DNA of 38,323 bases, taken from positions 1 through 38,323 of the forward strand of contig CAIZLM010000280.1 in assembly GCA_903933805.1 (NCBI GenBank), in the 5' to 3' direction. Below are positions 5,112 to 38,323 of the stretch, one piece after another. The translations under genes were made by a program, and so were the position numbers. A model generated the notes under the pieces. That model ran no database searches and was not told the origin of the DNA. It saw only the letters and a list, made by a program, of their open reading frames with translations. The stretch comes from an uncultured Bacteroidota bacterium (lineage in GTDB: Bacteria > Bacteroidota > Bacteroidia > Chitinophagales > Saprospiraceae). Position 1 is the first letter of the stretch. Each line of letters begins with the position of its first letter.

Positions 5112-5130
5112 TTTGGATGGTGATCGATGG

Positions 5131-5897: not shown

Positions 5898-6060
5898 ATA
5901 ACTGGTTAGCGTGGTCGCGTCTGAGACAAAAAAGTGGCCATTTTTTGCCAGACGAAGCGGATTTTTGTAGGCCATAGCAGCGCTATGGTGAAAAAAATCT
6001 GCGAAGTATGGCGGAAAATGGACTTTTTTGGGCCAGACAGCGTGCCACCTAACCAGGTAC
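5898..6060 (+). mobile_element. Long-form inverted-repeat element, A side left, 7/8 target duplication
   Basis: The element runs from ATAACTGGTTAGCGTGG to CCACCTAACCAGGTAC (163 nt). The A side carries CGCGTCTGAGAC and the B side GCCAGACAGCGTGCCACC. Inside is the long-form core GAAGCGGATTTTTGTAGGCC, then a hairpin CCATAGC-AGC-GCTATGG, then CTGCGAAGTATGGCGG. The flanks are AAAATCAA (5890-5897) and AAAACCAA (6061-6068), 7 of 8 identical. The right end lies 15 nt before the barrel-protein ATG, so this gene's upstream region is largely element. Confidence 0.85.
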
Positions 6061-6075
6061 AAAACCAAAACGATT

Positions 6076-6714
6076 ATGAAAAAAATCACACTGTTTTCAC
6101 TATTTATTGTCTTGGTGCAATGGCACCTTTCTGCTCAGTTGATGGACAAGGGAAATTTCATGGTGGGCTCCACCATTGGTTTTTCGACAGCCAACTCTAA
6201 GGTAACGACAGGGGCGTTGGAAAGTCAAGGCTTAACGGCTCAACAATTTAACATTGCTCCTGTCATTGGCTATTTTTTGCTTGACAACTTGGCTGCCGGA
6301 CTCGGCGCAGATTTCACCTTGAACACGGTGACGGAGCCGAACAGCGACAAAACCGATGACAGCGACTTGCTCTTTGGTCCTTTTGCACGCTACTATCTCC
6401 AACTGGGTGACAATGTCGCTTTTTTTGTGGTTGGAAACGTGGGTTTTGGCAACTCCAGAGACGAGCAGGTAGTCAATGACACCAAGCAACGTATCCAGAC
6501 CAATGTATTGGCTGTCGGTACTGGTCCAGGTCTGACCGTTTACTCGAAGGGAGGCTTTGCATTGGAGACGATATTCAAGTACAACTATGCTCGGAGCAAT
6601 TTTGATTCGACCATTGGCGGAGTGAGTACCAAGTCTGAGACGCGCACCAATCAGTTTTCATTGTCATTAGGGCTTCAATATTACTTTGGAGGCTTTCAGC
6701 GGGCGGGGGGTTAG
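6076..6714 (+). CDS. Outer-membrane beta-barrel protein
   Basis: This 212-aa protein begins with a Sec signal peptide (MKKITLFSLFIVLVQWHLSAQ, cleavage after about residue 20). It continues with alternating amphipathic strands typical of the small Bacteroidota outer-membrane barrels: FMVGSTIGFSTANS, NIAPVIGYFLLDNLAAGLGADF, FGPFARYYLQL, and a final strand ending LSLGLQYYFGG. This suggests an eight-stranded barrel of the OmpW/OMP_b-brl type. No specific function can be given. I chose ATG 6076 because it opens the signal peptide; an upstream frame from 6028 lies in the dispersed element. Its TAG stop overlaps the stop of the convergent GMC gene by four bases. Confidence 0.85.
   Translation: MKKITLFSLFIVLVQWHLSAQLMDKGNFMVGSTIGFSTANSKVTTGALESQGLTAQQFNIAPVIGYFLLDNLAAGLGADFTLNTVTEPNSDKTDDSDLLFGPFARYYLQLGDNVAFFVVGNVGFGNSRDEQVVNDTKQRIQTNVLAVGTGPGLTVYSKGGFALETIFKYNYARSNFDSTIGGVSTKSETRTNQFSLSLGLQYYFGGFQRAGG
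6711..6714. other. Overlapping stop codons of convergent genes
   Basis: The four bases TTAG contain TAG for the plus-strand barrel gene (6712-6714) and TAA for the minus-strand GMC gene (6711-6713). No space remains for an intergenic terminator. Confidence 0.9.
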
Positions 6715-8693
6715 GTCATCATGGTTGAAACGTGAAAGGCCAGGGCTTGAATGCTCAACATGGGATTAACGCCGCTGGCTGTCGGGAATAGGCTTCCGTC
6801 TGCGACGTACAGGTTGCGCACTTCACGTGTCTCTCCATTGGGCTTTACGGGGCAATTGCTGTTGCCGCCCATTCGGCATGTTCCCATTTGGTGTGCAGAA
6901 AACAGACCGAAATCATTGGGTCGCCATTGGCGATTGGCCATCTCGGTTGTGAATTTGTCTGGTTTATCTTTTTTGGGGTAGTAGTGAATGGGCTGGTTGT
7001 GCACGATCATGATGTGTTCGGCGCCAGCCGCTTCGTGCAGCCGGACGCTTTCCGCCAGACCGCGTAAGAGATGTTTTCGATCGTAATCGCTGAGTTTGTA
7101 ATGAACGACCGGTTGTCCGGACTGTTTTCCAATTGTTATTCTTCCGCCAAATTTATCGCGGGTGATGGCGATTTGAACGGACAACCGGCGTATTTCAGCC
7201 ATTTGAGCTTTGAAAGACTCCCCGCCTTCCCAACTCAGGGCAAACGCAGCCAAACCGGGGTGCAGTGGGGGGCATTCCAACCGTATGCCCCAGTTGCCGT
7301 CCAACTGTTCGAACGATCGAACAATGACGGACATCATTGGTCCATGCCAGGGCAGGGTATCTTCTGAAGCGAAGGCTGCCGTTGCAGCTACCGGATGAAG
7401 CCACAAATTTTGACCGATTTGGGGGTGTGTAAGACCACTTTTCATCAACAATACTGGTGTATTCAGTGCCCCAGCAGCCACTACTACCTTTTTTGCTTTG
7501 ATGGTTATTTTTTGGGGGTGGCCTGTTTTGGATGACCGCGTGGTACCTTCGGCGCCAACCGCTTCACCGTTTTTAACGAGAATGCGTTGAATATCGACAT
7601 TTGAAAACACACTTGCGCCGTTGGCCACCGCATCGGGCAAAAAAGTTTGTACCGAGCCTTGTTTGATCCCAAAACGATCGCCGTAACAGGAAAATCCGAG
7701 GGCTTTCCACGCTGTTTCCTCCGAAATATCTGTTGGAAACCGAATATTCAGGGGTATAGCACCAGCGTTAAGGCCCAGTTTTTGGGCTGCTGTGAGCAAA
7801 GCCAGGTTTTGCGGATTGTGCCGGTAATCCGTGTGGACGTTGTTTCTTTTTTCAATAAAATCGAAGCCTGCTTGGTAAGATTTTTCCGTGAAGTGGGGAT
7901 TTCCGTGCTGTGCCCACTCTTCCAACACGTATTCCGGGGTGCGCAGGGTGGCTGCCCAGTTGACCGTGGTTCCACCACCAAGTGTACTGCCTGCAAGCAC
8001 TGTCATACCACCATCTGTGGAGGCCAAGAGTCCGCCTGCTTCAAAATGATGTTGGAGGGTGGGAAATTCCCGTTGATCCATGGCATGTTCCGGGGTGTAC
8101 CCACCCTTTTCGACGACGATCACGTGATTGCCGGCTGCAGCCAATTGGGCAGCTACGACACCACCTGCTGCGCCACTGCCCACCACCAAAACGTCACACT
8201 CCAATAGGGTGTGCCCATTGGGTTCTTGAACTTTTAACAATACGCTGGGAGCCCGCTGTACAGGCCCAAGGGGTTCATAACCGATTGTTTTCCAGTTCGG
8301 ATTGGTTGATTCAGGCGTAAAGGTGTCCCCGAAGTAAATTAATCCCGTGAGTTTTCGCAGCGAATTAAATCCATTGCGGAGCAGCGGCAAGGGGCTTCTA
8401 GACCAACGTTTTAGGAGTATTGCCCGCTGTGCTGCTGTAAGGCGGTGAGCAGGTTTGAGGGGCCCCATCCAAGTGATGCCAAGGAGGGGACTAGCGAGCA
8501 ATTCAAGGAGTTGGCTGAACTGAGATTGATCCTCCGCTTTTGCTTTTTGCATTGCTAAGATGATCTTTTCAGCTACACCTACGTCACTGGCGGCGCGCCG
8601 CCAATAGCCATCGGGGTCATCCTCTTTTTGAATAGCCGGGATAAAAGTATCACAGATGGCGGCAAGGGCGGCGAGTTGACGTGATTGGTTCAT
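6711..8693 (-). CDS. GMC-family FAD-dependent oxidoreductase (long-chain alcohol oxidase-like)
   Basis: This 660-aa protein has the GMC arrangement. An N-terminal helical extension of about 165 residues precedes the Rossmann motif VVGSGAAGGVV (about 171-181), followed by VVEKGGY and the second GMC signature region around STLGGGTTVNWAA. The C-terminal GMC domain contains HQMGTCRMG and ends with NLYVADGSLFPTASGVNPMLSIQALA, the FAD- and active-site segment. The long helical N-terminus and the HQMGTCRMG form resemble the fatty-alcohol-oxidase branch, so oxidation of a long-chain or complex alcohol is a reasonable inference. No signal peptide is seen. I prefer ATG 8693; a GTG at 8732 would add 13 residues. 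The small gene at 8743-9231 lies directly upstream and is probably co-transcribed. Confidence 0.9.
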   Translation of the reverse strand: MNQSRQLAALAAICDTFIPAIQKEDDPDGYWRRAASDVGVAEKIILAMQKAKAEDQSQFSQLLELLASPLLGITWMGPLKPAHRLTAAQRAILLKRWSRSPLPLLRNGFNSLRKLTGLIYFGDTFTPESTNPNWKTIGYEPLGPVQRAPSVLLKVQEPNGHTLLECDVLVVGSGAAGGVVAAQLAAAGNHVIVVEKGGYTPEHAMDQREFPTLQHHFEAGGLLASTDGGMTVLAGSTLGGGTTVNWAATLRTPEYVLEEWAQHGNPHFTEKSYQAGFDFIEKRNNVHTDYRHNPQNLALLTAAQKLGLNAGAIPLNIRFPTDISEETAWKALGFSCYGDRFGIKQGSVQTFLPDAVANGASVFSNVDIQRILVKNGEAVGAEGTTRSSKTGHPQKITIKAKKVVVAAGALNTPVLLMKSGLTHPQIGQNLWLHPVAATAAFASEDTLPWHGPMMSVIVRSFEQLDGNWGIRLECPPLHPGLAAFALSWEGGESFKAQMAEIRRLSVQIAITRDKFGGRITIGKQSGQPVVHYKLSDYDRKHLLRGLAESVRLHEAAGAEHIMIVHNQPIHYYPKKDKPDKFTTEMANRQWRPNDFGLFSAHQMGTCRMGGNSNCPVKPNGETREVRNLYVADGSLFPTASGVNPMLSIQALAFHVSTMMT

Positions 8694-8742
8694 GGGGCCA
8701 ATGTACCAAGAAGTCGTGATAACTCGTTTCACAAAACTTATT

Positions 8743-9231
8743 TTACGCCACTTCGCCGTTGATTAATATTTCCAGAAAGCGGGTATTGGAGGTGGTTGCA
8801 TCGAATAGTATATTGCCATCTGGCGACACCCCTTCTCCGATGGTAATTTCGTATTCTTCATTGATGGTGGCCACGGCCCGATACACCTTGCCATCTTCCA
8901 CCCTCGTACCAGCGATCACCTTTCTGCTGATCAATTCACCCTTGAATGAAAAAGTTGCGAGAACGTACTCATAGTTGAGCAATTCCGCTTTCCACCACAC
9001 CAGTGCAACGAATTGTGCCGTATCGGCTATGCAAAAGCAGGGAATATATTCGGTAAATTCATCGTCGGGGACAGCCGTTTCAAGTGGATGAATGAATTGA
9101 GCGATAACGGCATCAGACAGCGGGTCATTTTCAGTTCCAAAAACGTGGTGGGAATCTTCACCCAAAGTAATTGGCATGGTTACCGGCGGAAATTTTGCGA
9201 TAAAATCCGGAAACGTAATTTTTTGAACCAT
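8743..9231 (-). CDS. Hypothetical protein, 162 aa, upstream partner of the GMC oxidoreductase
   Basis: I do not recognise a named family. The protein starts MVQKITFPDFIAKFPPVTMPITLGED and has no signal peptide or membrane helix. The middle is beta-rich (YIPCFCIADTAQFVALVWWKAELLNYEYVLATFSF), followed by a regular strand series (ISRKVIAGTRVEDGKVYRAVATI, EYEITIGEGVSPDG) that reads like a small antiparallel sheet domain. It ends 49 nt before the ATG of the GMC gene on the same strand, so the two are probably an operon. A degenerate element copy begins only 18 bases upstream of its start, so its promoter may lie in or beyond that element. Confidence 0.65.
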   Translation of the reverse strand: MVQKITFPDFIAKFPPVTMPITLGEDSHHVFGTENDPLSDAVIAQFIHPLETAVPDDEFTEYIPCFCIADTAQFVALVWWKAELLNYEYVLATFSFKGELISRKVIAGTRVEDGKVYRAVATINEEYEITIGEGVSPDGNILFDATTSNTRFLEILINGEVA

Positions 9232-9248
9232 TCTTATGATAAAATATT

Positions 9249-9327
9249 GTAACTGGTTGGGTCTAAGAGAAAAAAGCGGGTCTATTTGGCGCGAAAAAGC
9301 GGCTTTTTGAGCCTGAGGTCAAAAAAA
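9249..9327. mobile_element. Degenerate element copy abutting a compact copy
   Basis: It starts GTAACTGGTTGGGTCTAAGAGAAAAAAGCGGG and has an inner inverted repeat (AAAAAGCGGCTTTTT). It stops where the next GTAACTGG begins at 9328. The end sequence and T/A-rich centre match the family, but the far end is lost, as expected if a second element inserted into an older one. Confidence 0.5.
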
Positions 9328-9404
9328 GTAACTGGTTGGGTGGCACGCTGTATGGCGAAAAATAGCCATTTTTTTGTTTCAGACGCGAACACCAAACCAG
9401 TTGC
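9328..9404 (-). mobile_element. Compact inverted-repeat element, B side left
   Basis: This 77-nt element runs from GTAACTGGTTGGGTGGCACG to CCAAACCAGTTGC, with GCTGTATGGCG on the B side and TTTCAGACGCG on the A side. Poly-A on both flanks prevents a confident target-duplication call. Confidence 0.75.
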
Positions 9405-9459
9405 AAAAAATCTGTAATAATGGGCTTCGTGTGGCTGGAACCGTGTACCACGTGGGTAG

Positions 9460-10989
9460 TTATTTTGAGATAAACAATTCGAAATCAGCCAATTGAGCAC
9501 CTTTCAGCACCCGTGGAATTTTAGCTTGACCATTCATCTTACCCCGCTGAGAAAGCCAGGCTAGAAACACATCATTGGGCAAAAACTTAACACGCACATC
9601 GCGTAGCGCGTACCGCCGTTCCACGACATAATCATCGTTAAGGCGGCCCAATTCCGTATCGACGACACGCATAAACTCTTCCGGCGTGACGGATTGATTG
9701 TCGAGGGATACGTACCATTGATGGGCCCAGAAAGAACCTTCTCTGACGGCCGATACCGTAAATTCCCGTACTCCTGCACGCAATTGTTCATCTACGGCTC
9801 GCACAGCGGCGGAAAGGTTGTCAATGGAAAGGTGTTCGCCGCAAGCAGACAGGAATTGTTTGGTGCGACCCGTAATCCTAAATTCAGCTTGTTCGCTGTT
9901 CGTAAACTGGATGGTATCACCCAAAAGATAGCGCCATGCGCCGGCAGTCGTACTCAGAAGCAGTGCGTAGTGCACGCCCTCCTCCACCTCTTCCAGTCGC
10001 AGGCTGCGGGGTTGATCGCTGAGCAGGTCCCCGTTTTCGCTAAAGTTTTCGGTATCAAAGGGCACAAATTCAAAGAACACGCCACAATCCGCCAAAAGTT
10101 TCATGGAGCGGTTGTCGGGATGTTGTTGGTAGCCCAGAAACCCCTCTGAAGTCCCGTAACTGTCCATATAATGCATGGGCTGGCCGAACAGTTGCTCCAA
10201 TGACGGAATGTATGGGTCAACCATAACACCTCCATGGACAAAAAGGCTGAAATTGGGCCAAAGTTCGTGGATGTGTTTGATTTTATGTTTTTCAATCACC
10301 CGTTCGAGGACCAGTTGCAGCCACATGGGGTTACTCACGGAGAATCCAATATCCCAGCCGGTGGCTTCTTCGGCGATCATTTCAATACGGTCGCCCCACT
10401 CAGGCACATCTGTGATATGCCGGCCAGGGCGGTAAGAGCGCTCCATGACAAAAGGTCGATTCAGGCCCATGATTCCTGACAAATCACCCCACCAGTGGTT
10501 GCCTTGTCGCTGCAGGTGGGTGCAAGAACCGATCATCAACATCTGCTTGGTGTATTGACTGGCCGGGATACCGTAGTTGTTGAGGTCAAAAAACAAGCGC
10601 CGAGACCCTCTTTTCATGCCCCGCAGTAGATCTTCGGTCACAGGAATAAACTTGGAAGCTGTTTGGCTTGTACCACTGGACAAGGCATAGTATGGCACTA
10701 CCCCAGGCCAGCAGACGTCTGGCGCATCTTCAAGGTGTGCCTTCGACCACCATCGTTCATAAATACCATCATAATCGGTGGCGGGGACTGTTTTTTTGAA
10801 CATGGCGATCGGGTCATCGGCCATCATAATATCCTGGAAGCCATATTCCAGCCCGAAAGCTGTGTGGCGGGCCTCCCGCATGAGTTCCAACAGCTGTTGT
10901 TGTTGGAGTTCTGTAGCGGGTTGGCGGGGGGTATCGACAAGCGCTCCAAGTTTGGCGCTTTTTTGAATAATGGTACCTAGAATGGACAT
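9460..10989 (-). CDS. GH3-family (auxin-responsive GH3-like) acyl-acid amido synthetase
   Basis: This 509-aa protein matches bacterial GH3 proteins, members of the adenylate-forming (ANL) superfamily. The ATP-binding motif appears as YALSSGTSQTASKFIPVT (SSGTS at 104-108), the second motif as DSYGTSEGFLGYQ, and the third as RYLLGDTIQF. The C-terminal part (about 380-509) is the mobile lid domain. Plant GH3 enzymes join amino acids to acyl acids such as auxin or jasmonate; in Bacteroidota the substrate is unknown, so acid activation and conjugation is inferred. I chose ATG 10989 (MSILGTIIQKSAKLGAL); a frame open to 11085 adds 32 unlike residues. No neighbour clarifies the pathway. Confidence 0.9.
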   Translation of the reverse strand: MSILGTIIQKSAKLGALVDTPRQPATELQQQQLLELMREARHTAFGLEYGFQDIMMADDPIAMFKKTVPATDYDGIYERWWSKAHLEDAPDVCWPGVVPYYALSSGTSQTASKFIPVTEDLLRGMKRGSRRLFFDLNNYGIPASQYTKQMLMIGSCTHLQRQGNHWWGDLSGIMGLNRPFVMERSYRPGRHITDVPEWGDRIEMIAEEATGWDIGFSVSNPMWLQLVLERVIEKHKIKHIHELWPNFSLFVHGGVMVDPYIPSLEQLFGQPMHYMDSYGTSEGFLGYQQHPDNRSMKLLADCGVFFEFVPFDTENFSENGDLLSDQPRSLRLEEVEEGVHYALLLSTTAGAWRYLLGDTIQFTNSEQAEFRITGRTKQFLSACGEHLSIDNLSAAVRAVDEQLRAGVREFTVSAVREGSFWAHQWYVSLDNQSVTPEEFMRVVDTELGRLNDDYVVERRYALRDVRVKFLPNDVFLAWLSQRGKMNGQAKIPRVLKGAQLADFELFISK

Positions 10990-11115
10990 AATTGTTACCC
11001 TTGCGTCAAATTTTATTGATGCGGGCTGCGAAGGTAATAAGAAGCCGTTGACAGGTTGAGAGCCTGATGAAAAATTATCATCCAAGCCGCATCAATTTGC
11101 ATTTCATTAAAAATC

Positions 11116-11278
11116 GCCACTGGTTGGGTGGCACGGCGTTTGGCCCAAAAAGGCCTGGTTTCCGCTATCCTTCGTCGATTTATTGACTGTTTCGATGCAA
11201 TATGCAGCAAAAATCTATTTTGTCTGGCAAAAAATGGTCACTTTTTTTGTCTCAGACGCGATCACCCTAACCAGTTAC
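11116..11278 (-). mobile_element. Long-form inverted-repeat element, B side left, decayed core
   Basis: The ends read GCCACTGGTTGGGTGGCACG and CACCCTAACCAGTTAC, with GTCTCAGACGCG on the A side and GGCGTTTGGCCCAAAAAGGCC on the B side. The 163-nt length equals the long form. The central hairpin is eroded: the expected CCGTAGC/GCTACGG pair is not visible around 11180-11205. Flanking octamers differ, so the ends may have drifted. Confidence 0.75.
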
Positions 11279-11286
11279 TTGTAATT

Positions 11287-13305
11287 TTAGTGTTCAATGA
11301 TGGTTTTTCTGGTAAATGCCCCTTTATCTGTAATGATTTTTAAAAAATAAACACCGGAAGGCAGCCCAGTGGTTGAAAAGGTCGATTCTGCTCCGGCGAG
11401 CGATTCTTGGAGGACTGTTTTTCCAAAAATATCAATCAACGCAGCGCTTTCCAGGGTGGCTCGTTTGACACGAACCGTCATTAAATCATTGGCTGGATTG
11501 GGGTGTACGCTCCACTCAACATCCGCATCAAGGGTTGACACGCCAGTGTCCGTAAAATTAACGGTGGTGCAGTACTGATCGGTACATGTGCCGGCAACAT
11601 TGCTGATTTGAAGGCACACTTGGTACATACCCGGGGCTGAATAGGTATGAAATAAGGTGTCAAAAGCACCAAAAATCACCGCTCCATCACCCAAGTTTAG
11701 CACCCATGATTCGGCGCTATCCGAGAAGTCTTGTAGCATTATCGTGCGGTTTGGCAGCGTTTGAAGGGAAAAAGTGGCCTTACATTCCAATTTGATACAA
11801 CAAGGGCCACGGGTCCAGGACGTTACGCCATACGAGAATGCACGGCATTCATTGTCATAATCTTGCCCGTTGCAGCCACAAACCGGGTCGTATGTTCCGA
11901 GGCAAGGGGTAAGGGTATCGATCCAGACAGGATTGACGCATCCGTCAGGGCAAGGACCTGGCACCCATTCCGTGACACCGTGTTTGTAGTACGCATTGCA
12001 CTCATTTTTATAGGTGATACCATCACAACCGCAAATAGGCTCATACAAGGGCGGACATTGTTTGGACAAATCTATCACAGCCGGGTTGATACAGTTTTGC
12101 CCCCCGATGTGGAATGTTTTACAAATTTTGCCACCACACTGCGTGCCATTGATGAACAACCCCGAAACGGCGAGACAAACTTCATAATCACCCGGATTGA
12201 TAAAATCAACGGTGGGGTATTGATCGAAAGAAACAATACCATTGCCAAAATCCCAATACCAACTGCTTACTTGACCACCGATAAAAGAGGTCAAATCAGC
12301 AAAATTCCATTCTGTGGGCGAATTGCCAGATACGTAACCATCAAAATCGATGGCCATATTGTTGCACACACTGCCACAAACACCTGGCGTCCAAGAGGTT
12401 ACGCCCTGGTATTTGGTAGCCTGACAATCGTTGTCATAGGTGATACCGTCACAGCCACACACCGGGAAATATAACAGTGGACAATCCGCCGACAGATCAA
12501 TTTGCGCAGGATCTATGCAAGCGCTCGACACTTCAAATGCCTTGCATACGGTACATGTTTCACCAGTAAAATCATCTTTTGGGTACGTGGCACAAAGCGT
12601 GTGAATACCCGACTCCCCAATAATCTGGTAGAACTCTAAACCGCTTCCGGTAGCCGTGCCACCGTCCAACGACCACAGCACATAAAAGAAAGCAGGCGTA
12701 TCGGGCAGTGCAGGCGACAAGGTAGCGTACATGGCCAAACCATCGACTTGCACATCAATACCGTAATTGCAATTGTCCAAACAATCATTGGGCACTGTTA
12801 CTGACAGGCAAAATGTTTTTTCACAGATGGTTCCACTGGTTGCCGCAGCACGTACCGTTAGGCAAACCAAGTGATTGCCTGCTTGCTGAAAGGTATGGGT
12901 CGGATTTTTTTCGACAGCAACATTGCCATCGCCAAAATCCCATATATATGCGATAATCTGGCCATTTTGCAGGGTTGTTTGATCAAAAAAAGAGACTGTT
13001 CTGGAATGGGGTGATATCAGTTGAAGAAAACTGACATCGAGTCCTTGGCAAAAACTGGTGCCGGGGCACACACCACTGGACCATTGGGTTACGCCGCGCG
13101 TAAGGGCGATACAACTGTTGCCGTACGTAACGTCGTCACAGCCACATACGGGTGCATACACGGCAGGACAGAATCCATCAGGGTCTATCAATGAAGAGTC
13201 AATACAAACACTCTGTGCCTGAAGATTGTTGACAATAAAAAAAGTGGACAGTAAGGTATTGACAACGAGCAGTTGAAATATGGAGAAAAAGCGAATTTGA
13301 CGCAT
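11287..13305 (-). CDS. Secreted T9SS type A protein with four Kazal-like and several PKD domains
   Basis: This 672-aa exported protein has a signal peptide (about 1-30, ending NNLQAQ), then alternating modules. Four Kazal-like Cys-rich units share a CP..Y.PVCGCDG.TY.N.C...GVT.W..G.C pattern, near residues 34-80, 262-312, 407-455 and 457-503. PKD-like domains lie between and after them: one with WDFGDGNV, one with WYWDFGNGIV, one around WVLNLGDGAV. The last 75 residues (VHPNPANDLMTVRVKR to FTRKTIIEH) form a Por/T9SS type A sorting domain, so the protein should cross the outer membrane through T9SS and be anchored or released. Kazal domains usually inhibit serine proteases, so protease-resistant display or protease control is a possible role. 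Start ATG 13305 opens the signal peptide. Confidence 0.88.
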   Translation of the reverse strand: MRQIRFFSIFQLLVVNTLLSTFFIVNNLQAQSVCIDSSLIDPDGFCPAVYAPVCGCDDVTYGNSCIALTRGVTQWSSGVCPGTSFCQGLDVSFLQLISPHSRTVSFFDQTTLQNGQIIAYIWDFGDGNVAVEKNPTHTFQQAGNHLVCLTVRAAATSGTICEKTFCLSVTVPNDCLDNCNYGIDVQVDGLAMYATLSPALPDTPAFFYVLWSLDGGTATGSGLEFYQIIGESGIHTLCATYPKDDFTGETCTVCKAFEVSSACIDPAQIDLSADCPLLYFPVCGCDGITYDNDCQATKYQGVTSWTPGVCGSVCNNMAIDFDGYVSGNSPTEWNFADLTSFIGGQVSSWYWDFGNGIVSFDQYPTVDFINPGDYEVCLAVSGLFINGTQCGGKICKTFHIGGQNCINPAVIDLSKQCPPLYEPICGCDGITYKNECNAYYKHGVTEWVPGPCPDGCVNPVWIDTLTPCLGTYDPVCGCNGQDYDNECRAFSYGVTSWTRGPCCIKLECKATFSLQTLPNRTIMLQDFSDSAESWVLNLGDGAVIFGAFDTLFHTYSAPGMYQVCLQISNVAGTCTDQYCTTVNFTDTGVSTLDADVEWSVHPNPANDLMTVRVKRATLESAALIDIFGKTVLQESLAGAESTFSTTGLPSGVYFLKIITDKGAFTRKTIIEH

Positions 13306-13379
13306 TAAAATCGATTTTAGAAACAGGTATCTTAGGTATATAGAGAATTGGCAAATCTTTACGGTGTTGTTTTATAGTC

Positions 13380-13457
13380 GTAACTGGTTTAGTGGCACGC
13401 TGTCTGGCCCCAAAAGGCCACTTTTTTGTCTCAGACGCGACCACGCTAACCAGTTAC
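13380..13457 (-). mobile_element. Compact inverted-repeat element, B side left, perfect 8-bp target duplication
   Basis: The element runs from GTAACTGGTTTAGTGGCACG to CCACGCTAACCAGTTAC (78 nt), with CTGTCTGGCC on the B side and GTCTCAGACGCG on the A side. It is flanked by TTATAGTC on both sides (13372-13379 and 13458-13465), which is direct evidence of insertion. Confidence 0.92.
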
Positions 13458-13790
13458 TTATAGTCAACACAAAGTGATTGTGCATGAATTGTCACTGCAA
13501 ACCATAAATCATCAAAACCACTTTAATCACAGTCTAATCCTCGCAGAGGCTTACCCTGTCAAGGCTAACCTGCCATTCCCGAAAGTATGTTGTACTTTAG
13601 AGGTGCACAATTACAGCATAACACGTTTAACAGTACGCAAAATAAGGTCAAAACTCCAATACAAAATGCAGTTTTTTCAAATATATGCTGTTTTATCTAA
13701 AATATTACAAATCAAGCGGGCGTTTTCGATAAAACCAACCTATTGAGCGTCTATATTTGTTGTACTATTTCATCCGCAAAAATACATACT
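13458..13790. other. Intergenic stretch without recognised gene
   Basis: After the target duplication at 13458-13465 the sequence is AT-rich with no convincing gene. The 90-codon frame at 13474-13746 has the composition of non-coding DNA. TATATTTG at 13752-13759 is a possible -7 promoter box for the gene at 13791, but no -33 box lies at the proper distance. Confidence 0.4.
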
Positions 13791-14288
13791 ATGTTCAGAT
13801 CTTTGCTCAAACTTGCTGTTGTTGCCATTTTTGCCATTCTTGCGTACAATTACTTTTTGGGCAACCGCGAAGAAAAGGAGGATTCCCGTCGTGTTTTTAG
13901 CCAAATGAGAGGGGTCATCGTATCCGTAACGCAAATTATTAAGTCTGAAAGTGCCAAATTTGACGCGGGTAAGTACGATGAGGCCCTTGATAAATTGGGT
14001 GGAGCTTACAAGGCCATCCGTCAGCAGGCTCAGCGCATGGATGAAAAAATGTTGACCCGTCTCGATGAGCTTGAGCGCCGAAAAACAGCGATGGAACAGG
14101 AGCTTGACAGCATTGAACAAGTTGATCAACAGCCGGTTATCACTGACAAAAAAAAAGGCGCCGCTGGTTCTTCGGTTGAAAAATCGAAAAAAGCTGCCGA
14201 ACAACAGCGTCGAAAAGAGTTGCTTCAAAAGAAACTGGATGATTTACTGCGTGATTCCGACACCTTGCTGCAAGACGCGCAACAATAG
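13791..14288 (+). CDS. Hypothetical membrane-anchored coiled-coil protein, 165 aa
   Basis: The protein starts MFRSLLKLAVVAIFAILAYNYF, one N-terminal membrane helix or uncleaved signal anchor. The rest is strongly charged and helical: residues about 50-110 (YDEALDKLGGAYKAIRQQAQRMDEKML, LERRKTAMEQELDSIEQ) and 130-163 (KKAAEQQRRKELLQKKLDDLLRD) have the heptad pattern of coiled coils, separated by a Gly/Ser/Lys linker. It would sit in the inner membrane with its coil in the periplasm or cytoplasm. I do not recognise a family. The TerC-family gene follows after 108 nt on the same strand and may be co-transcribed. ATG 13791 was chosen because it opens the membrane helix. Confidence 0.65.
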   Translation: MFRSLLKLAVVAIFAILAYNYFLGNREEKEDSRRVFSQMRGVIVSVTQIIKSESAKFDAGKYDEALDKLGGAYKAIRQQAQRMDEKMLTRLDELERRKTAMEQELDSIEQVDQQPVITDKKKGAAGSSVEKSKKAAEQQRRKELLQKKLDDLLRDSDTLLQDAQQ

Positions 14289-14396
14289 AATAACGTGGCG
14301 AGGGAAGCGCCCGGAGATGCTTCAACACGCAATGGCAAAGAGAACCATTCTGCTTGATTGATGTTAAGGGATTGAACCATTGCGAATTACAAATCC

Positions 14397-15167
14397 ATGA
14401 TGACAGAATTATTCCATACTATTTTTGGCGACGACTGGCAAGGATCGCTGGTGATTGTCCTCAATTTGATCTTAATTGAGAGTCTGTTGTCTGTTGACAA
14501 CGCGGCCGTAATTGCGACGATGGTGCTTGATTTACCCCCCGAAAAGCGAAAATTGGCACTTCGGTACGGGATTATTGGCGCTTATTTTTTTCGGGGTGTT
14601 TGCCTGATTTTTGCGTCTTGGCTGATCGAAATTTGGTGGCTCAAGCCACTGGGGGGCGCCTATTTGGTGTACTTGATGTGGGGATATTTCAGGGGCAAAT
14701 CAACACCCAAAAGAGATGATGACACCTTGGCAAAGGAGGAAAAGTGGTTTTACAAAGTTTCTCGGGGCGTACTGGGGTCTTTTTGGTCCACCATCGTAGC
14801 CGTGGAAATCATGGATTTGGCGTTTTCGTTGGACAATGTTTTTGCTGCGGTAGCCTTTACTGATAATATTTACCTGATCTGCATGGGTGTGTTTATCGGC
14901 ATATTGGCCATGCGGTTTGTGGCACAGTGGTTTGTTTTTCTGCTAGAAAAATACCCATTTTTGGAAACAAGCGCGTTTTTGGTGATCGGTGTTTTGGGTG
15001 TAAAACTTTTTTTATCGCTTCCCTGTCATTTTCTGGAAGGCCATGCGTGGGCGATCTGGATTGAAAGTGAGACGGCCGACTTGATCGTCAGTTTTATCAC
15101 TGCTGGCTTCTTTTTTGTCCCCATTGTGACGTCCCGTTTGTTTGGATTTCCCCGTAGCAACCCGTGA
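14397..15167 (+). CDS. TerC-family integral membrane protein
   Basis: This 256-aa protein has about seven hydrophobic segments and the two TerC repeat signatures: IESLLSVDNAAVIATMV (D34 and N35) and, after a cytoplasmic loop rich in Lys and Asp (about 100-115), EIMDLAFSLDNVFAAVAF. The acidic residues in these helices are thought to bind the transported ion. TerC/Alx/MeeF-type proteins export manganese, some feeding secreted metalloenzymes. That is family knowledge and is not shown here. Two adjacent ATG codons (14397 and 14400) could start it. It converges with the exported metallophosphoesterase gene after only 31 nt, and that enzyme type often needs Mn, though no functional link is shown. 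Confidence 0.88.
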   Translation: MMTELFHTIFGDDWQGSLVIVLNLILIESLLSVDNAAVIATMVLDLPPEKRKLALRYGIIGAYFFRGVCLIFASWLIEIWWLKPLGGAYLVYLMWGYFRGKSTPKRDDDTLAKEEKWFYKVSRGVLGSFWSTIVAVEIMDLAFSLDNVFAAVAFTDNIYLICMGVFIGILAMRFVAQWFVFLLEKYPFLETSAFLVIGVLGVKLFLSLPCHFLEGHAWAIWIESETADLIVSFITAGFFFVPIVTSRLFGFPRSNP

Positions 15168-15198
15168 ATGAGCACCACACCAATGGCTTGCAAGTAGG

Positions 15199-16353
15199 TC
15201 ACCGTTGCGAAGGTTTAACCGTATTCCTCGGTTTCGGAACGCTGAATACCTGCGATTTTTCTCCGTTGGTATGGATGGTGAAAAGCTTTTCATCTTCTAT
15301 CCACAGTGTTTGCACAAATCCTTCTCGAAGGCTTTCTTCATGGTACAAATCGATACAAATAACACGCCCATGGTAATAGGCGGTTGGAAATGGCTGTAGG
15401 GTATGCCCCACAACCATTTTTTTAGCGCCCACAAAATCCAGAATAGTTGTTACCTCTTCCTGTGAAACCATATTTTTTGCAAGGCCTCGATACCAAAAGA
15501 TGCCTGTTTTGTGGTCAAAAATTGTTTTGGCCATTGGAAGTTCGATATAATAGTCGTCTTTCCCCAAGTTATGCCGAGCAATTCTGTTGATATCAAATAA
15601 GCTGAGCCCTGTGTGTACCAAGTCCATACTGATTCCACCATGGCAAAAGACAATGTCACCAATTTTTTCCACAGCATTTTTTGTTCTTAACCAACGACCC
15701 AATTCAGCGTTTTGGTCGAACCACCGATGATAATCCTCCTGAAGGATTCGGGCATTTTGGAGGTATTTTTTTCGAACATACTCGGTATTGCCCTGAAGGT
15801 TCATTACTTCGTGGTTTCCTAGGATAAAATGCAGTTTTCCACCGGCGGCGTCTGCTTCGCCTTCTAATTTGTAGAGTAGCCAAAGACATTCCGTCACCTG
15901 AAGGCCCCGGTCAAAAAAATCGCCCAACAACACCAAGTGGCCATCTCCAAACGTCCAATTGAAATGATTGTCCATCACACCGGCGCTTTGAAGCATCATT
16001 TTCATGGCTTTGAAGTTGCCTTCGATGTCAGACAATGCCAGTAAGCGGCTTGCGGGCAGATAGTTGTCGGGTTGAATCTCCAATTTTTCCTGGAGCGAGA
16101 ACGAAAATGTGTCTCCCGTTTCAGGGATGGTGCAGTGTAACAACGCGGAGCGTTTGTCTGCGTAACATTGCGTGCTGGCAACTGGCACGGCGTCGCGCAT
16201 AACAACATATTTCACCACCAATCCATTATCGCGGTAGAAAACATGGGGGCCATCTGTACCAGCCTTGGAGTTATCGGCAGGATCCATCACTATATAGGCG
16301 CGCAAAACCAAAGGCGAAGCCAAAAAAAGAAAACACAACAGTCGGCTGGGCAT
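15199..16353 (-). CDS. Exported calcineurin-like metallophosphoesterase
   Basis: This 384-aa protein has a signal peptide (MPSRLLCFLFLASPLVLRA), so it should act in the periplasm or outside the cell. All metallophosphoesterase motifs are visible: SDIEGN (108-113, with D109), GDFFDRG (144-150), GNHE (179-182), the later FCHGG and GHT motifs. These bind a dinuclear metal centre and suggest a phosphoesterase resembling the bis(5'-nucleosyl)-tetraphosphatase/Shewanella-like phosphatase group, but the substrate is not predictable. The N-terminal 100 residues before the catalytic core include a short beta region of unknown role. ATG 16353 was chosen because it opens the signal peptide. Confidence 0.88.
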   Translation of the reverse strand: MPSRLLCFLFLASPLVLRAYIVMDPADNSKAGTDGPHVFYRDNGLVVKYVVMRDAVPVASTQCYADKRSALLHCTIPETGDTFSFSLQEKLEIQPDNYLPASRLLALSDIEGNFKAMKMMLQSAGVMDNHFNWTFGDGHLVLLGDFFDRGLQVTECLWLLYKLEGEADAAGGKLHFILGNHEVMNLQGNTEYVRKKYLQNARILQEDYHRWFDQNAELGRWLRTKNAVEKIGDIVFCHGGISMDLVHTGLSLFDINRIARHNLGKDDYYIELPMAKTIFDHKTGIFWYRGLAKNMVSQEEVTTILDFVGAKKMVVGHTLQPFPTAYYHGRVICIDLYHEESLREGFVQTLWIEDEKLFTIHTNGEKSQVFSVPKPRNTVKPSQR

Positions 16354-16534
16354 GGTATGGGTATTGAAGATTGATCCGATGGGAAATAAAACCATATTGC
16401 GCGACAATGGTTTGACGCCAGTTGTTTTTTCTCGCTACAATGGTGCCGTTGGCCATGGATCTCGCACCAAATTTGGCAATCAATACGTGGAGGGAATCAG
16501 TGTGTCCGAGATTGGACACACTGCCTGTGGTTGA

Positions 16535-18565: not shown

Positions 18566-18603
18566 CGGTTGTTGTTCGGAGATACGGGTGATTTTGAATG
18601 ACT

Positions 18604-18716
18604 GTAACTGGTTGGGTGGTGGGAAGTATGTGGTTTTCGCAACTGGGTAGGTGGCGGGCTGCTTTTCCCAGCACGGCCATTTTTCGTGTCTGACACGACC
18701 ACCCATCTCGTTTCAC
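18604..18716 (-). mobile_element. Nested pair: solo element end (18604-18638) and degenerate compact element (18639-18716)
   Basis: GTAACTGGTTGGGTGG at 18604 is followed by a second end GCAACTGGGTAGGTGGCGGG at 18639, with GTGTCTGACACGACCACCC on the far side and a decayed terminus CATCTCGTTTCAC. It sits between the PorP/SprF-like and OmpA/PD40 genes, 38 bases upstream of the OmpA ATG, so it may alter read-through within this cluster. No target duplication is visible. Confidence 0.6.
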
Positions 18717-18725
18717 ATCAAAAGA

Positions 18726-19679: not shown

Positions 19680-19787
19680 AACAATGGCTTTGGCTAAAGT
19701 GTGGATTTTGCGGCTAAGTCCAAGCAATTACTTTCGAATAGATCGGACACAAAAAGGCTATCGGTACACCGTTGGCTGGATTAAATT

Positions 19788-27794: not shown

Positions 27795-27867
27795 ATAACG
27801 GGTTATACAGCATATTGTCTGACCCCAAAAACTGATTTTACACAGTTTCGAGTCTCTAACGCGTTAC
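27795..27867 (-). mobile_element. Compact element at the 3' end of gltX, perfect 8-bp target duplication
   Basis: The 73-nt element runs from ATAACGGGTTATACAGC to CTAACGCGTTAC, with TTGTCTGACCCC on the B side and GAGTCT on the A side. It is more diverged than other copies, but the flanks TGAAGATC (27787-27794 and 27868-27875) are identical. Its end supplies the gltX TAA stop (27864-27866). Confidence 0.85.
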
Positions 27868-29434: not shown

Positions 29435-29553
29435 CAAAAATAGGTGTTTTATGGTAACTGGTTAGGGTGGTCGCGTCTGAGACAAAAAAGTGGCCATTAT
29501 TTGCCAGACAGCGTGCCACCTAACCAGTTACGTTTTATGTTTGCTGCGTCAAA
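29435..29553 (-). promoter_or_regulatory. Candidate gltX promoter split by an element insertion
   Basis: On the minus strand a -7-like TATTTTTG lies at 29442-29435. If the element (29454-29531) and one copy of its target duplication are removed, a -33-like TTTG (29553-29550) lies exactly 21 nt upstream, a good Bacteroidota promoter spacing. In the present sequence the two boxes are 107 nt apart. Confidence 0.45.
29454..29531 (+). mobile_element. Compact inverted-repeat element, A side left, perfect 8-bp target duplication
   Basis: This is the best-preserved compact copy (78 nt): GTAACTGGTTAGGGTGG, then TCGCGTCTGAGAC, then an A/T-rich centre, then GCCAGACAGCGTGCCACC and TAACCAGTTAC. The flanks GTTTTATG (29446-29453 and 29532-29539) are identical. 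It lies upstream of gltX, in the opposite orientation to the copy at the gltX stop. Confidence 0.93.
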
Positions 29554-29645: not shown

Positions 29646-29783
29646 GTAACTGGTTAGATGGTCACTTTTTTGTTTCAGACGAAGCGGGTATTTACAGGTC
29701 GAAGCCGCAACGGTCAAAAAAATGGGCGACGTATGGCAAAAATGGGCCTTTTCGGGCAGGCCTTGTGTCGCCTAAGCGTTTCC
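29646..29783 (+). mobile_element. Decayed long-form element, A side left
   Basis: It starts GTAACTGGTTAGATGG and holds TTTCAGACGAAGCGGG, TTTACAGGTCGAAGCCGC, AACGGTCAAAAAAATGGGCGACGTATGGC and a B end TCGCCTAAGCGTTTCC. The long-form core is recognisable, but the A side is shortened (138 nt) and the central hairpin is lost. No target duplication is seen. Confidence 0.65.
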
Positions 29784-30513: not shown

Positions 30514-30540
30514 ACAACTGGTTAGGTGGTACGTTTCATC
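30514..30540. mobile_element. Solo element-end fragment
   Basis: ACAACTGGTTAGGTGGTACG matches the B-side end of the dispersed element closely, but the similarity is lost within about 27 nt and no opposite end was found. It lies in the short gap between convergent genes. Confidence 0.4.
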
Positions 30541-32187: not shown

Positions 32188-32236
32188 CATTGGCATAGTT
32201 TTGTGTTTATCGTTGGATGCCAATCATTTATTGAAA

Positions 32237-35472: not shown

Positions 35473-36864
35473 ATGGACCAAACGAATCTTTGCCAACTGA
35501 TACACACCTTTTCAACCGTTGAATTGCGGGATGTACGCCGTTTTCTACATTCACCTTTTTTCAACCAACGAAAGGACCTGATGCTGCTATTTGACTGGCT
35601 CTGTGCGATGCCCTCAGCGACCAAAGAAAGCACCTGGCGCCATCTTTTTGGCGATATCGCTTTTGATTCTCAAAAGTTTCGGCTTCACCTGAGTTATTTA
35701 CACCGATTGTTGGAACAGTATCTTATCGTCAAAGAAGCGACCGGCAACCAGCTTACCAATCAGGTAACGTTGGCCGTGGCGTATCGAAAAAGAAACAACC
35801 AGACGGCATTTGAACGCGTGCGTAAAACCCTTGAAAAATCACTGGAGAGCCAACCTTTGCGCAACGCCTACTACCATCAAAATCACTACCATCTTTTGTG
35901 GGAATCCCACCAACACAACTACACCCTGAACCCCACCGACGTATCACAGTTGCGGGAGCTTTCCAACGCGGCAGATGTCGTTTACCTCTGCCAAAAATTG
36001 CGGGTGGTGTGTTTACTGGCAGCGCATCAATCTGTTTACCAAGCTGACATTGAGCACGACCAAGAGAAAGAACTAATGGTCATGGCTGAAAGAGCGGCGT
36101 ACGCCGATGAACCAGCCATTGCAGTATATATGGTGTGTTATCGGATGCTTCGAAAACCCGACGAGGCGGAATACTTCCAACAGTTTAAAGCGATCCTCAT
36201 GGAACGATCCTCTAATTTTTCGGAAGAAGAAGTGCATGGCTTATTTATTTTGGCCATCAACTACTGCGTTCGCAAAATAAATTCCGGTCAAGACAAGTAT
36301 TCCAGCGAAGTGCTTGCGCTGTACAAGACCGGCTTGTCGAATGGTTATTTGTTTGAGAACGGCATTCTTCGTCGCTTCACGTATTACAACATCGTAGCGG
36401 CGGGACTCCAGTCAAACGAATTGGAATGGGTTCGCTACTTTATCCATGAATACAAAAACAGACTGGAGAAAAAATATCGGGAGAGTCTGTTTGGCTTCAA
36501 CTTGGCCAGGCTGGAGTACGCGCATCAGAATTATGGCTATGTACTAGATCTCCTGCAGAAAGTCAATTACCGGGATATTCTGCTCAACCTTTCCTCAAAG
36601 ACACTGCTGTTGAAAACCTATTTGGCCTTGGGCGAAGAGCAGATGCTGCGGTCTCACTTAGACGCCATGCGCAACTATATTCACCGAAAACACGTCATTG
36701 GATACCATCGCACCAACTACCTCAACGTGGTTCGGTACATGGAAAAATACATGGGACTCCAGCTATCCGATAAACTCGCGGTCGGAGCGTTCCGGGATTT
36801 GTTGGAAAGAGAAGAGACGCTGTCTGAAAAAAACTTTTTCCTTGGTTTGTTGCCCTCCGTTTAA
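35473..36864 (+). CDS. Conserved helical protein of unknown function, 463 aa
   Basis: I do not know a name for this family. The start MDQTNLCQLIHTFSTVELRDVRRFLHSPFFNQRKDLM resembles the N-terminus of uncharacterised Bacteroidota proteins, with the ELRD...FL.SPFFN.R pattern. The remainder is almost wholly alpha-helical with Leu/Tyr-rich repeats spaced like TPR or other solenoid helices (for example LYKTGLSNGYLFENGILRRFTYYNIVAAGLQ). No signal peptide or membrane segment. The 5' region is extremely AT-rich; TATTTTTG at 35441-35448 is a possible -7 box. ATG 35473 is preferred to a TTG at 35446. A terminator follows at 36896-36923, and a partly deleted second copy of part of this gene lies at 37156-37389. 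Confidence 0.75.
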   Translation: MDQTNLCQLIHTFSTVELRDVRRFLHSPFFNQRKDLMLLFDWLCAMPSATKESTWRHLFGDIAFDSQKFRLHLSYLHRLLEQYLIVKEATGNQLTNQVTLAVAYRKRNNQTAFERVRKTLEKSLESQPLRNAYYHQNHYHLLWESHQHNYTLNPTDVSQLRELSNAADVVYLCQKLRVVCLLAAHQSVYQADIEHDQEKELMVMAERAAYADEPAIAVYMVCYRMLRKPDEAEYFQQFKAILMERSSNFSEEEVHGLFILAINYCVRKINSGQDKYSSEVLALYKTGLSNGYLFENGILRRFTYYNIVAAGLQSNELEWVRYFIHEYKNRLEKKYRESLFGFNLARLEYAHQNYGYVLDLLQKVNYRDILLNLSSKTLLLKTYLALGEEQMLRSHLDAMRNYIHRKHVIGYHRTNYLNVVRYMEKYMGLQLSDKLAVGAFRDLLEREETLSEKNFFLGLLPSV

Positions 36865-36895
36865 TTCATCTCCACAATCCTTCGTTAAATGAGAA

Positions 36896-36923
36896 GGGGC
36901 GCTACAGCTTTCTGTAGCACCCC
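36896..36923 (+). terminator. Rho-independent terminator of the 463-aa protein gene
   Basis: GGGGCGCTACAG (36896-36907) pairs with CTGTAGCACCCC (36912-36923) at 11 of 12 positions around the loop CTTT. TTTTT follows at 36930-36934. It lies 31 nt after the stop codon. An identical copy lies at 37476-37503. Confidence 0.85.
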
Positions 36924-37155
36924 CAGCCCTTTTTAACACGTTATATCTTAGAAGGATTGATGTTGTCTTTTGTTCGGTGGTCCTAATTTAAGTATGAACC
37001 TGCGCAATGGTCATTGTAATCGACGTTTTGAAACAAAACAGTTAATTAATGGACCAAAATTGAGAATAACATGGAATATTAGCAAATTTAGTTGCACGAA
37101 CTGTACAAATTACCACTTGAATTGAACAATACACGGTATTTCCCAAGTGTTTTCA

Positions 37156-37389
37156 TTGTGTGTTATCGGATATCTGATGCTTCGAGAACACGACATGGCG
37201 GAATACTTCCAACAGATTAAAGCGATCCTCACGGAACGATCCACTAATTTTTCGGAAGTAGAAGTGCATGGCTTATTTATTTTGGCCATCAACCGCTCGT
37301 CCGCAAAATATATTCCGGTCAAGACAAGTATTCAAGCGCAGTACTAGCGCTGTAGAAGACCGGCTTGTCGAATGGATATTTGTTTGAAA
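37156..37389 (+). pseudogene. Truncated duplicate of the 463-aa protein gene
   Basis: The segment repeats the parent gene around 36131-36360 at high identity (for example GCGGAATACTTCCAACAG and GGCTTATTTATTTTGGCC occur in both). It has no 5' half, a short in-frame insertion (TATCTG, near 37171), and a one-base deletion near 37293 that breaks the frame: parent AACTACTGCGTTCGC, copy AACCGCTCGTCCGC. An in-frame TAG appears in the shifted frame near 37345. The similarity ends at 37389, where a compact element begins. After that element, sequence matching the parent's 3' flank resumes, so about 527 nt of parent sequence (36360-36886) is absent. Confidence 0.85.
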
Positions 37390-37466
37390 GCAACTGGTTA
37401 ACGTGGTCGCGGCTGAGACAAAAAATGCCCATTTTTTGCCAGACAGCGTGCCGCCCAACCAGTTAC
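37390..37466 (+). mobile_element. Compact element at a deletion junction, A side left
   Basis: GCAACTGGTTAACGTGG, GTCGCGGCTGAGAC, an A/T centre, GCCAGACAGCGTGCCGCCC and CAACCAGTTAC make a 77-nt element. The flanks GTTTGAAA and AAATGAGA are different, so no target duplication is present, as expected if recombination between two nearby copies, or an adjacent deletion, removed the DNA between. Confidence 0.88.
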
Positions 37467-37690
37467 AAATGAGAAGGGGCGCTACAGCTTTCTGTAGCAC
37501 CCCCAGCCCTTTTTAACACGTTATATCTTACAAGGATTGATGTTGTCTTTTGTTTGGTGGTCTTAATTTCATTATGGACCTATTGCCGTATCCAGTTAAT
37601 GTAGGACTCAAAAGTGGGTATAGCATCCAATATTAACAAAATTAATTATATGAACTGTTCAAATTAAGCGTTGAATTGAACACTACCGCT
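37467..37690 (+). repeat. Tandem duplicate of the 3' flank of the 463-aa protein gene
   Basis: From AAATGAGAAGGGGCGCTACAG on, this repeats 36887-37141. The first 95 nt are nearly identical (single changes near 37532 and 37555) and the rest is recognisable but diverged (parent GAACTGTACAAATTACCACTTGAATTG, copy GAACTGTTCAAATTAAGCGTTGAATTG, aligned in pieces). This sets the boundaries of a tandem duplication. Confidence 0.8.
37476..37503 (+). terminator. Duplicated copy of the rho-independent terminator
   Basis: Identical stem-loop to the one at 36896-36923, with the same TTTTT tract. It would end any transcript from the pseudogene. Confidence 0.75.
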
Positions 37691-37892
37691 TGATGTCTCT
37701 TTTCTCAGGTATTTGTCCGGCGCCATTAATTTTTTTGTTCGCTAGCCATTCTATCAAAATGAATGCAACGCACTGGAGCCAAACACACGTAACAAAATCC
37801 ATACCAAAAACCGAACCGAACTTTTCTATCACTTCCACCCACCATCTTTTTTGATGCTGAAGTAGGACACAAAAATGCGGTCTTAGCAGCAT
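37683..37892 (-). CDS. Possible small hypothetical protein, 69 aa
   Basis: This frame has one hydrophobic segment (FVTCVWLQCVAFILIEWLA) and a basic tail. I do not recognise it. It ends within or beside the duplicated flank and begins 15 nt from the iteron array at 37907-37960, a position that would suit an autoregulated gene. No promoter motif was found, and it could equally be chance. Confidence 0.22.
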   Translation of the reverse strand: MLLRPHFCVLLQHQKRWWVEVIEKFGSVFGMDFVTCVWLQCVAFILIEWLANKKINGAGQIPEKRDIKR

Positions 37893-37906
37893 ATTTCAGT
37901 CGATTT

Positions 37907-37977
37907 ATCGGTTACAAATTGTCAAAATCGGTTACAAATTGTCAATAGTGGTTACAAATTCATTCATTGTTGTAACC
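37907..37977. repeat. Iteron-like direct repeats with 20-bp spacing
   Basis: Two complete 20-bp units, ATCGGTTACAAATTGTCAAA (37907-37926) and ATCGGTTACAAATTGTCAAT (37927-37946), are followed by a partial third, AGTGGTTACAAATT (37947-37960). An inverted TTGTAACC (37970-37977) lies 9 nt on. The 20-bp period puts GGTTACAA on the same DNA face each time, as for an operator or a replication/partition iteron. Confidence 0.75.
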
Positions 37978-38040
37978 ATTATGTCGCAGACCCTTCATAA
38001 ACCCCGCTAACACATTACAACATGGAAGTTATTTGATTTT

Positions 38041-38200
38041 GTAACTGGTTAGGTGGCACGCTGTCTGGCCCCAAAAGGCCCATTTTCCGCCATACTTCGC
38101 AGGTTTTTTTGACCGTAGCGCTGCTACGGCCTACAAAAATCCGCTTCGTCTGGAAAAAACGGTCGCTTTTTTTTCATCTCAGACGCGACCACCCAATAAT
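38041..38200 (-). mobile_element. Long-form inverted-repeat element, B side left
   Basis: It begins GTAACTGGTTAGGTGGCACG and CTGTCTGGCC, then CCGCCATACTTCGCAGG, the central hairpin CCGTAGC-GCT-GCTACGG (38107-38123), AAAATCCGCTTCGTC, and the A side CATCTCAGACGCGACCACCC. The A terminus is decayed (AATAATTTTAG instead of TAACCAGTTAC). Both long-form halves are well preserved. Confidence 0.85.
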
Positions 38201-38212
38201 TTTAGTTTGATA

Positions 38213-38323
38213 GTAACTGGTTAGGTGGCACGCTGTCTGGCCAAAAAAGGCCTATTATCCGCCATACTTAGCATATTTTTTTGACCGTAGCGCTGCTACG
38301 GCCTGCAAAAATCTGCTTCTTCT
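38213..38323 (-). mobile_element. Second long-form element in direct tandem, cut by the window end
   Basis: It begins GTAACTGGTTAGGTGGCACG 172 nt after the preceding copy, in the same orientation, with the same central hairpin (CCGTAGC-GCT-GCTACGG) and TGCAAAAATCTGCTTCTTCT at the window edge. Point differences from the first copy show they are not a recent duplicate. Confidence 0.85.

Follow-up and report, generated by a model that had tools for sequence, protein, structure and literature searches.

A gene-less, high-copy inverted-repeat family in a Saprospiraceae genome, its likely IS66-type helper, and a hairpin core found with several end types in other Bacteroidota

Element copies in the window

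Contig CAIZLM010000280.1 (C280) of an uncultured Bacteroidota bacterium of the family Saprospiraceae, analysed over its whole length of 38,323 nucleotides and hereafter called the window, carries numerous copies of a short inverted-repeat element bounded by GTAACTGGTTAG. We describe these elements, which are very likely miniature inverted-repeat transposable elements (MITEs), together with the hairpin core that they share with elements of other Bacteroidota. The host genome (G000) comprises 4.2 Mb in 336 contigs and is 97% complete.

With up to two mismatches allowed, the window has 24 matches to GTAACTGGTTAG, where 2.07 would be expected; 0 of 100 shuffles reached 24. A profile search (nhmmer, E <= 1e-3) yielded 10 loci, starting at positions 5899, 9250, 11118, 13380, 18640, 29454, 29647, 37391, 38041 and 38213; the locus at 9250 merges the compact copy 9328-9404 with a degenerate left fragment. 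The copies and their parts are as follows.

5898..6060, minus strand (B-to-A reading): long form, intact; 185.2 bits; flanks identical at 7/8 positions
5922..6036, minus strand: hairpin core of copy 5898..6060 (element positions 25-139, the range of model R1 described below, placed via element coordinates)
9249..9327, plus strand: degenerate fragment bearing a single GTAACTGGTTGG end (1 mismatch to the motif), adjoining the next copy; no profile locus of its own
9328..9404, plus strand: compact form; 73.8 bits; flanks 5/8
11116..11278, plus strand: long form, diverged; 124.5 bits; flanks 4/8
13380..13457, plus strand: compact form; 86.6 bits; flanks 8/8
13372..13379 (left) and 13458-13465 (right): target duplication TTATAGTC of copy 13380
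18639..18704, plus strand: compact form, degenerate; 21.4 bits, E 1e-4 (18640-18704)
29454..29531, minus strand: compact form; 86.7 bits; flanks 8/8
29446..29453 (left) and 29532-29539 (right): target duplication GTTTTATG of copy 29454
29646..29778, minus strand: long form, degenerate; 62.3 bits (29647-29778)
37390..37466, minus strand: compact form within a rearranged segmental duplication (repeats D4, D6, D12); 70.1 bits; flanks 4/8
38041..38195, plus strand: long form without its right end; 158.7 bits (model 1-152 of 163)
38213..38323, plus strand: long form truncated by the contig end; 111.3 bits (model 1-110)

An earlier note, made from the window alone, had described a compact (~78 nt) and a long (~163 nt) form with distinguishable sides A and B, a central hairpin, both orientations and no gene inside the elements, all of which was borne out. 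Its reading of a gene-less, dispersed, high-copy inverted-repeat family is likewise supported: the copies are mostly intergenic, and Rfam gave 0 matches at gathering scores for the window and 17 loci of relatives. Among the eleven copies that it listed, 10 were recovered by the profile search and the one at 27795 fell below the threshold; near it, a single end at 27856 has the GTAACTGGTTAG motif with 2 mismatches. As for the six additional fragments, the motif was present with 1 mismatch at 2527, 2723, 9249 and 18604 and with 2 mismatches at 30514, while 1930 was unmatched, and 0 of the 6 gave a separate profile locus.

The segmental duplication around the copy at 37390 is about 1 kb long (36139-37132 and 37171-37686) and comprises the 3' part of the 35446-36864 gene and the downstream region. 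Its second copy lacks the stretch matching 36357-36886 and has the compact element 37390-37466 there instead. Moreover, tandem elements about 8 to 20 bp apart were observed at window positions 38041-38323, at L005:1145-1478 and at L130, as if one element had inserted beside another. Proteins such as PorP/SprF and Por secretion tails agree with assignment of the DNA to the Bacteroidota.

Copy number and genomic context

Exact GTAACTGGTTAG ends numbered 597 genome-wide, against 2 for the control. We then sampled 573,721 bases, consisting of the window, contigs C1-C20 and stretches of long contigs (mostly picked since copies had already been seen there), and found 129 merged loci, at densities of 0.26, 0.19 and 0.23 per kb, respectively. 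From the sampled loci, and from 77 exact ends in the sample versus 597 genome-wide, we estimate about 800-1000 copies per genome, in agreement with the hundreds predicted from the window. Several contigs start or stop within a copy, and many hairpin matches in G042, G071 and G000 lie at contig ends; the repeats therefore probably limit assembly and conceal further copies.

Gene context was determined with a home-made gene caller. The elements had been said to occur only between genes or at their edges, and 112 of the 129 sampled loci were indeed wholly intergenic (16 under random placement); the exceptions to the claim were 4 loci overlapping a called gene by more than 25%. Of the 125 loci with an overlap of at most 25%, 111 had two neighbouring genes, in tandem (70), divergent (27) or convergent (14) arrangement, in proportion to the intergenic space available (48.3, 20.9 and 8.9 kb, respectively). 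The median distance of loci was 126 bp to 5' ends and 32 bp to 3' ends, as expected from the loss of harmful insertions.

Target duplications and the two forms

Both flanks were available for 83 of 84 full-length copies (42 long and 42 compact). At 8 bp, mean flank identity was 0.727, compared with 0.326 for shuffled flanks, and the 8-bp duplication was perfect in 26 copies and matched at 7 or more of the 8 positions in 43, against about 0.7 in shuffles. Perfect matches peaked at 8 bp only, with none at 7 bp or 9 bp. The duplication is not kept everywhere, since flanks agreed at 3 or fewer of the 8 positions in 15 copies and at 4 in 11. Target sites were AT-rich. Perfect duplications were observed in 17 of 41 long and 9 of 42 compact copies; both forms are therefore transposed elements. 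The family thus combines the features of a MITE, namely short length (~78 or ~163 nt), the lack of a gene, GTAACTGGTTAG inverted ends and a constant 8-bp duplication. We conclude that it is very likely a non-autonomous MITE, because of these duplications and because insertion sequences (ISs) of the IS66 family have the same ends (see below).

The long form folds into a single imperfect hairpin over its full 163 nt (z -8.95 on one strand and -10.71 on the other), and the fold of the compact form likewise spans its entire length (z -6.90). The junctions of the 42 compact copies with flanks were of several kinds: GTCTGGC joined to AAAAAATGG (10 copies), GGCC.AAAAAGGCC (13 copies) and others (19 copies). 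GTCTGGC is present twice in the long form, which points to several separate internal deletions, and the compact copies, which lack the middle, probably arose via repeated internal deletions between short repeats. As they carry target duplications, the middle is probably not needed for movement. Shortened versions also exist with other ends (L171, L173, L175 and L289).

Candidate helper elements

The ends of IS66 elements begin with GTAA. In a genome of the same genus as the host (G009), we found an IS66-family element (L198:594-3723) with a PF03050 transposase and a 15-bp perfect inverted repeat, GTAACTGGTTAGCCT, flanked on both sides by TTTTCAGA, a perfect 8-bp duplication. Another element, whose proteins are apparently IS1-like, has inserted twice into its transposase gene (L198:697-1532 and 2833-3659). 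A second genome of this genus (G025) contains a 1050-bp IS66-type element (L199:350-1399) with the same 15-bp ends, flanks identical at 6/8 positions and a shortened transposase; the proteins of the two elements are 69-78% identical over two blocks. To judge from these sequences, an IS66-type helper for the GTAACTGGTTAG ends is likely. Two Paracoccus IS66 elements are listed with 8, and IS427-group elements with 2, in a column of PMC3281130 that we take to give repeat length.

Other IS66 elements resemble other hairpin elements. In G007, the IS66 elements end in GTAAAAACTTAG and contain copies with an open frame of 475 aa; the 8-bp duplication is perfect for several of them but not for L202 and L203. 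The hairpin elements of G003, G059 and G012 have ends of the GTAAAAACTTAG type with small variations, and those of G012 have their first 12-16 bases in common with L011, an IS66 element of the host genome. In the window itself, positions 3810-3880, between two genes, form an inverted repeat of 71 bp that ends in GTAACTGGTTGTGGTGTATAGCA but differs in its interior, perhaps another MITE type with IS66-like ends.

A hairpin core shared by other Bacteroidota

When the long form was searched with blastn, matches were found in 15 of 149 genomes, own included. In relatives beyond G014 and G025, they spanned only parts of positions 24-148, and the loci are hairpins of the same build within other ends. 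Of 4 relatives searched for the GTAACTGGTTAG ends, 2 had them, namely G014 and G025. The interior was also represented by a covariance model, R1, of 115 positions, built on 20 elements from 12 genomes. It matched 59 of the 149 genomes (own included; 58 of 148 relatives), which belong to 24 of 93 genera. In a sample of 296 genomes of the phylum, it matched 5, among them the own one, with the 291 negatives serving as control. Among genomes outside model building, it matched G029 (6.7e-17), G061 (2.4e-16), G369 (3.6e-15), G247 (1.1e-13) and G397 (1.3e-10); because R1 was briefly calibrated, E-values are rough, and weak matches near 1e-3 may be due to chance. These results show that the core is spread more widely than the GTAACTGGTTAG ends. 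The family is not confined to the window, a possibility that the earlier note had allowed for: its ends occur genome-wide and in G014 and G025, and its core wider still.

A comparison of the long form with plasmid records gave no match, and we found no description of the family in open-licence papers, although an earlier one may exist. A closely similar long copy starts at about position 306 of L013 (CAJAVU010000005.1), a 5-kb contig of a metagenome-assembled genome titled Flavobacteriales, and reflects either wrong binning or transfer.

Covariation of the core and wobble-pair asymmetry

For 34 cores of 32 genomes, we made a MAFFT alignment that took no account of structure. The cores were drawn from 76 searched loci (111 matches, weaker reverse-strand ones included), leaving out G025 (degenerate), G089 (partial), extra copies per genome and genomes with matches but no fetched locus; L065 of G016 gave no core match. 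Eleven of the 34 cores had also been used to build R1. In the RNAalifold structure, 92.7% of cells were paired, compared with 73.7 ± 1.0 in shuffles, a percentage favoured by the derivation of the structure from the same alignment. Double changes were present in 18 of 23 pairs (145 cells versus 39.4 in shuffles, cell counts being inflated by related rows), and the covariation score was 0.501, versus 0.161 in shuffles and 0.042 to 0.113 for structures slid by 1-3 columns. The structure derived from the window's family alone was worse (62% paired, with a slightly higher score when slid by -1), because the outer register differs between families.

Four helices of the core covary, and its internal loop is conserved. 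Depending on the family, the apical stem reads GTAGC/GCTAC, GATGC/GCATC, GTACC/GGTAC or ATAGC/GCTAT, and the internal loop, CTTCG and GCCTTG, is largely unchanged across families. A covarying hairpin module with several end types in many Bacteroidota is thus well supported.

Wobble pairs were unevenly distributed between the strands, with G-U on the A-to-B strand in excess in 60 of 76 elements and the reverse in 8. The outer stem favoured the A-to-B strand by 94 versus 29, and in 15 of 16 non-tied terminal-repeat clusters (p = 0.0005); some unlike ends are lumped into one cluster of 25, and without two clusters based on weak secondary matches the count is 13 of 14. In the core, the same strand was favoured by 247 versus 150, which was not significant by cluster (8 versus 6). 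On the A-to-B strand, the internal loop has the sequence CGAAG. Together with it, the asymmetry, itself suggestive only, would point to the hairpin of the A-to-B strand, as RNA or single-stranded DNA, as the selected form.

End types and duplication classes

Elements with clean ends were mostly 157-164 bp long (exceptions: L116, 185 bp, and L270, 199 bp); this length applies to the clean-end families, as in many others the symmetric boundary search extended past the ends. Several duplication classes were distinguished, in rows that include a few nested or doubtful pairings. The GTAAAAACTTAG class showed perfect 8-bp duplications in 6 of 17 elements (0.37 expected), and the GTGC/GAGC..TGTTTGGAGG class (G071, G061 and G042) perfect 3-bp duplications in 12 of 15 (7.2 expected), TTA being paired with TTA or TAA with TAA. 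TA was present on both sides in 12 of 14 elements of the AGTACC class and 8 of 12 of the GACTTGTTGCGG class; for such a constant TA, a shuffle cannot tell a duplication from part of the end. The shared core, the unrelated ends and the differing duplications (at least three classes: 8 bp, TA, TTA/TAA) suggest that elements of several transposase specificities have carried the module. The core tree has 6 changes of duplication class, where the minimum is 2; at least two class switches are needed, and more are likely.

In the genomes of the TA and TNA classes, searches for IS630 (PF13358) and IS5 (PF01609) transposases gave no IS whose ends match exactly, and helpers of these types are therefore putative. 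The ends of IS5-type loci in G027 and G042, GACTTGTT / GAGTTGTT, are similar and adjoin TA. No two AGTACC ends spaced as in an IS turned up in a pattern search.

Proposed explanation

We propose that the family is a gene-less MITE that would be moved in trans by an IS66-family DDE transposase recognising the GTAACTGGTTAG ends and duplicating 8 bp of AT-rich target on insertion. One and the same hairpin module would have travelled on elements with three or more transposase specificities. In the weakest step of the proposal, the hairpin of one strand, as RNA or single-stranded DNA, may help the element to persist or multiply. As a whole, this account of an IS66-moved MITE with a widely shared core, several transposase specificities and a selected hairpin appears highly probable to us. 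We are close to evenly divided, leaning slightly to doubt, on a bolder version, in which an old module of ~115 nt would be an independent selfish unit of Bacteroidota that repeatedly swaps its terminal repeats and parasitises IS66-like (8-bp), TA- and TNA-duplicating transposases, one folded strand being selected.

Several results weigh against this proposal. Among the 3 PF03050 matches of the host genome, no IS66 element with GTAACTGGTTAG ends was found: the ends of two begin with GTAAGCCTCCC (flanks 8/8) and GTAACTATCCAG (flanks 3/8), and the third (L010) is partial, with unreadable ends. Both IS66 partners with these ends, in G009 and G025, are interrupted or deleted. Within the scanned IS elements, the core was matched only weakly and only in L184 (E 0.042); the match at L010 is a separate MITE copy, so the MITE is not established as a deletion derivative of its helper. 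Approximately unbiased (AU) tests do not reject one clade per duplication class (p 0.42, 0.12 and 0.29). Finally, orientation to genes in tandem contexts is near neutral (40 versus 30) and gives no support to an RNA role at the insertion site.

Some of these results would also suit an ordinary MITE family, in which the core is kept by descent, the ends drift with the helpers, and pairing is kept by arm-to-arm correction through templated repair in hairpins, not by a function. We regard this as a credible, if lesser, possibility. It would agree with the neutral orientation, with a tree that does not reject a single origin per class, and with the duplications of core-less compact copies. However, the loop positions (CTTCG / GCCTTG) are largely constant while paired positions change in step, whereas arm correction would tend to erase internal loops, and the 8-bp, TA and TTA/TAA classes would be hard to reach via drift of one transposase.

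The core might instead be a bidirectional transcription terminator or insulator, given the order of A-tract, GC-rich segment and T-tract on both strands, the terminator-like sites within compact copies 13380 and 9328, and the 36 sites found in a scan of window positions 1-20000 (25.5 +/- 5.5 in shuffles). This reading is disfavoured, and we consider it unlikely: pairing beside the outer T-runs is weakly conserved (at most 1/3 of sequences for several of the pairs) and missing in the consensus structure, the best-kept helices have the T-run first and the A-run last, which is the wrong polarity, and element context tracks the intergenic space available.

Repetitive extragenic palindromes (REPs), or their mosaic elements (BIMEs), spread by a single-strand (RAYT, Y1) transposase, are also short, mostly intergenic and high in copy number, and the wobble pairs favour one strand, but such an origin is very improbable here, since REPs are not known to have target duplications whereas our copies have exact 8-bp ones, and IS66 elements have the same ends. 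REPs are, in addition, 20-40 bp long in the passage of PMC3733652 that describes them.

Significance and comparison with known systems

MITEs are usually viewed as passive leftovers of a single IS. If a covarying hairpin persists in many Bacteroidota while its ends and duplications change, an element without genes would be able to exchange one helper for another and to carry a structure under selection. A genome with ~1000 copies would offer a natural test of what the hairpin does for a genomic parasite.

The family has GTAA ends in common with IS66-family ISs. The 8-bp duplication is also shared with them, going by the two Paracoccus elements listed in PMC3281130; unlike these ISs, the element has no transposase, and its core was not found in the scanned IS elements. 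QMITE2 of Coxiella burnetii, with direct repeats of 7-9 bp, ends of 23-29 bp, a core of 113-145 bp and a stable predicted fold, is similar in its description, and the main text of the review concerned does not contain 'IS66', 'chimeric' or 'Bacteroid' (PMC10969869). MITECca01 of Cardinium is an IS-derived MITE, likewise in a Bacteroidota genome, present in 169 copies and not found by its authors in other Cardinium strains; it is assigned to IS982, and 'hairpin' is absent from the main text of the paper (PMC9769881). RUP of Streptococcus pneumoniae is similarly tied to a helper IS through its ends, having been assigned to IS630-Spn1 via common ends and the TA target; it differs in IS family, and the passages on RUP mention no such shared core (PMC2229807). 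The Correia or NEMIS elements of Neisseria, according to the passages on them in the same article, are of ~107 and 155 bp, with a 50-bp internal difference, stem-loop transcripts and a target duplication (PMC2229807). They thus resemble the present family as gene-less MITEs of related lengths with a target duplication, whereas the present family has an 8-bp duplication, ends like those of the IS66 family, and an inner hairpin common to elements with unrelated ends.

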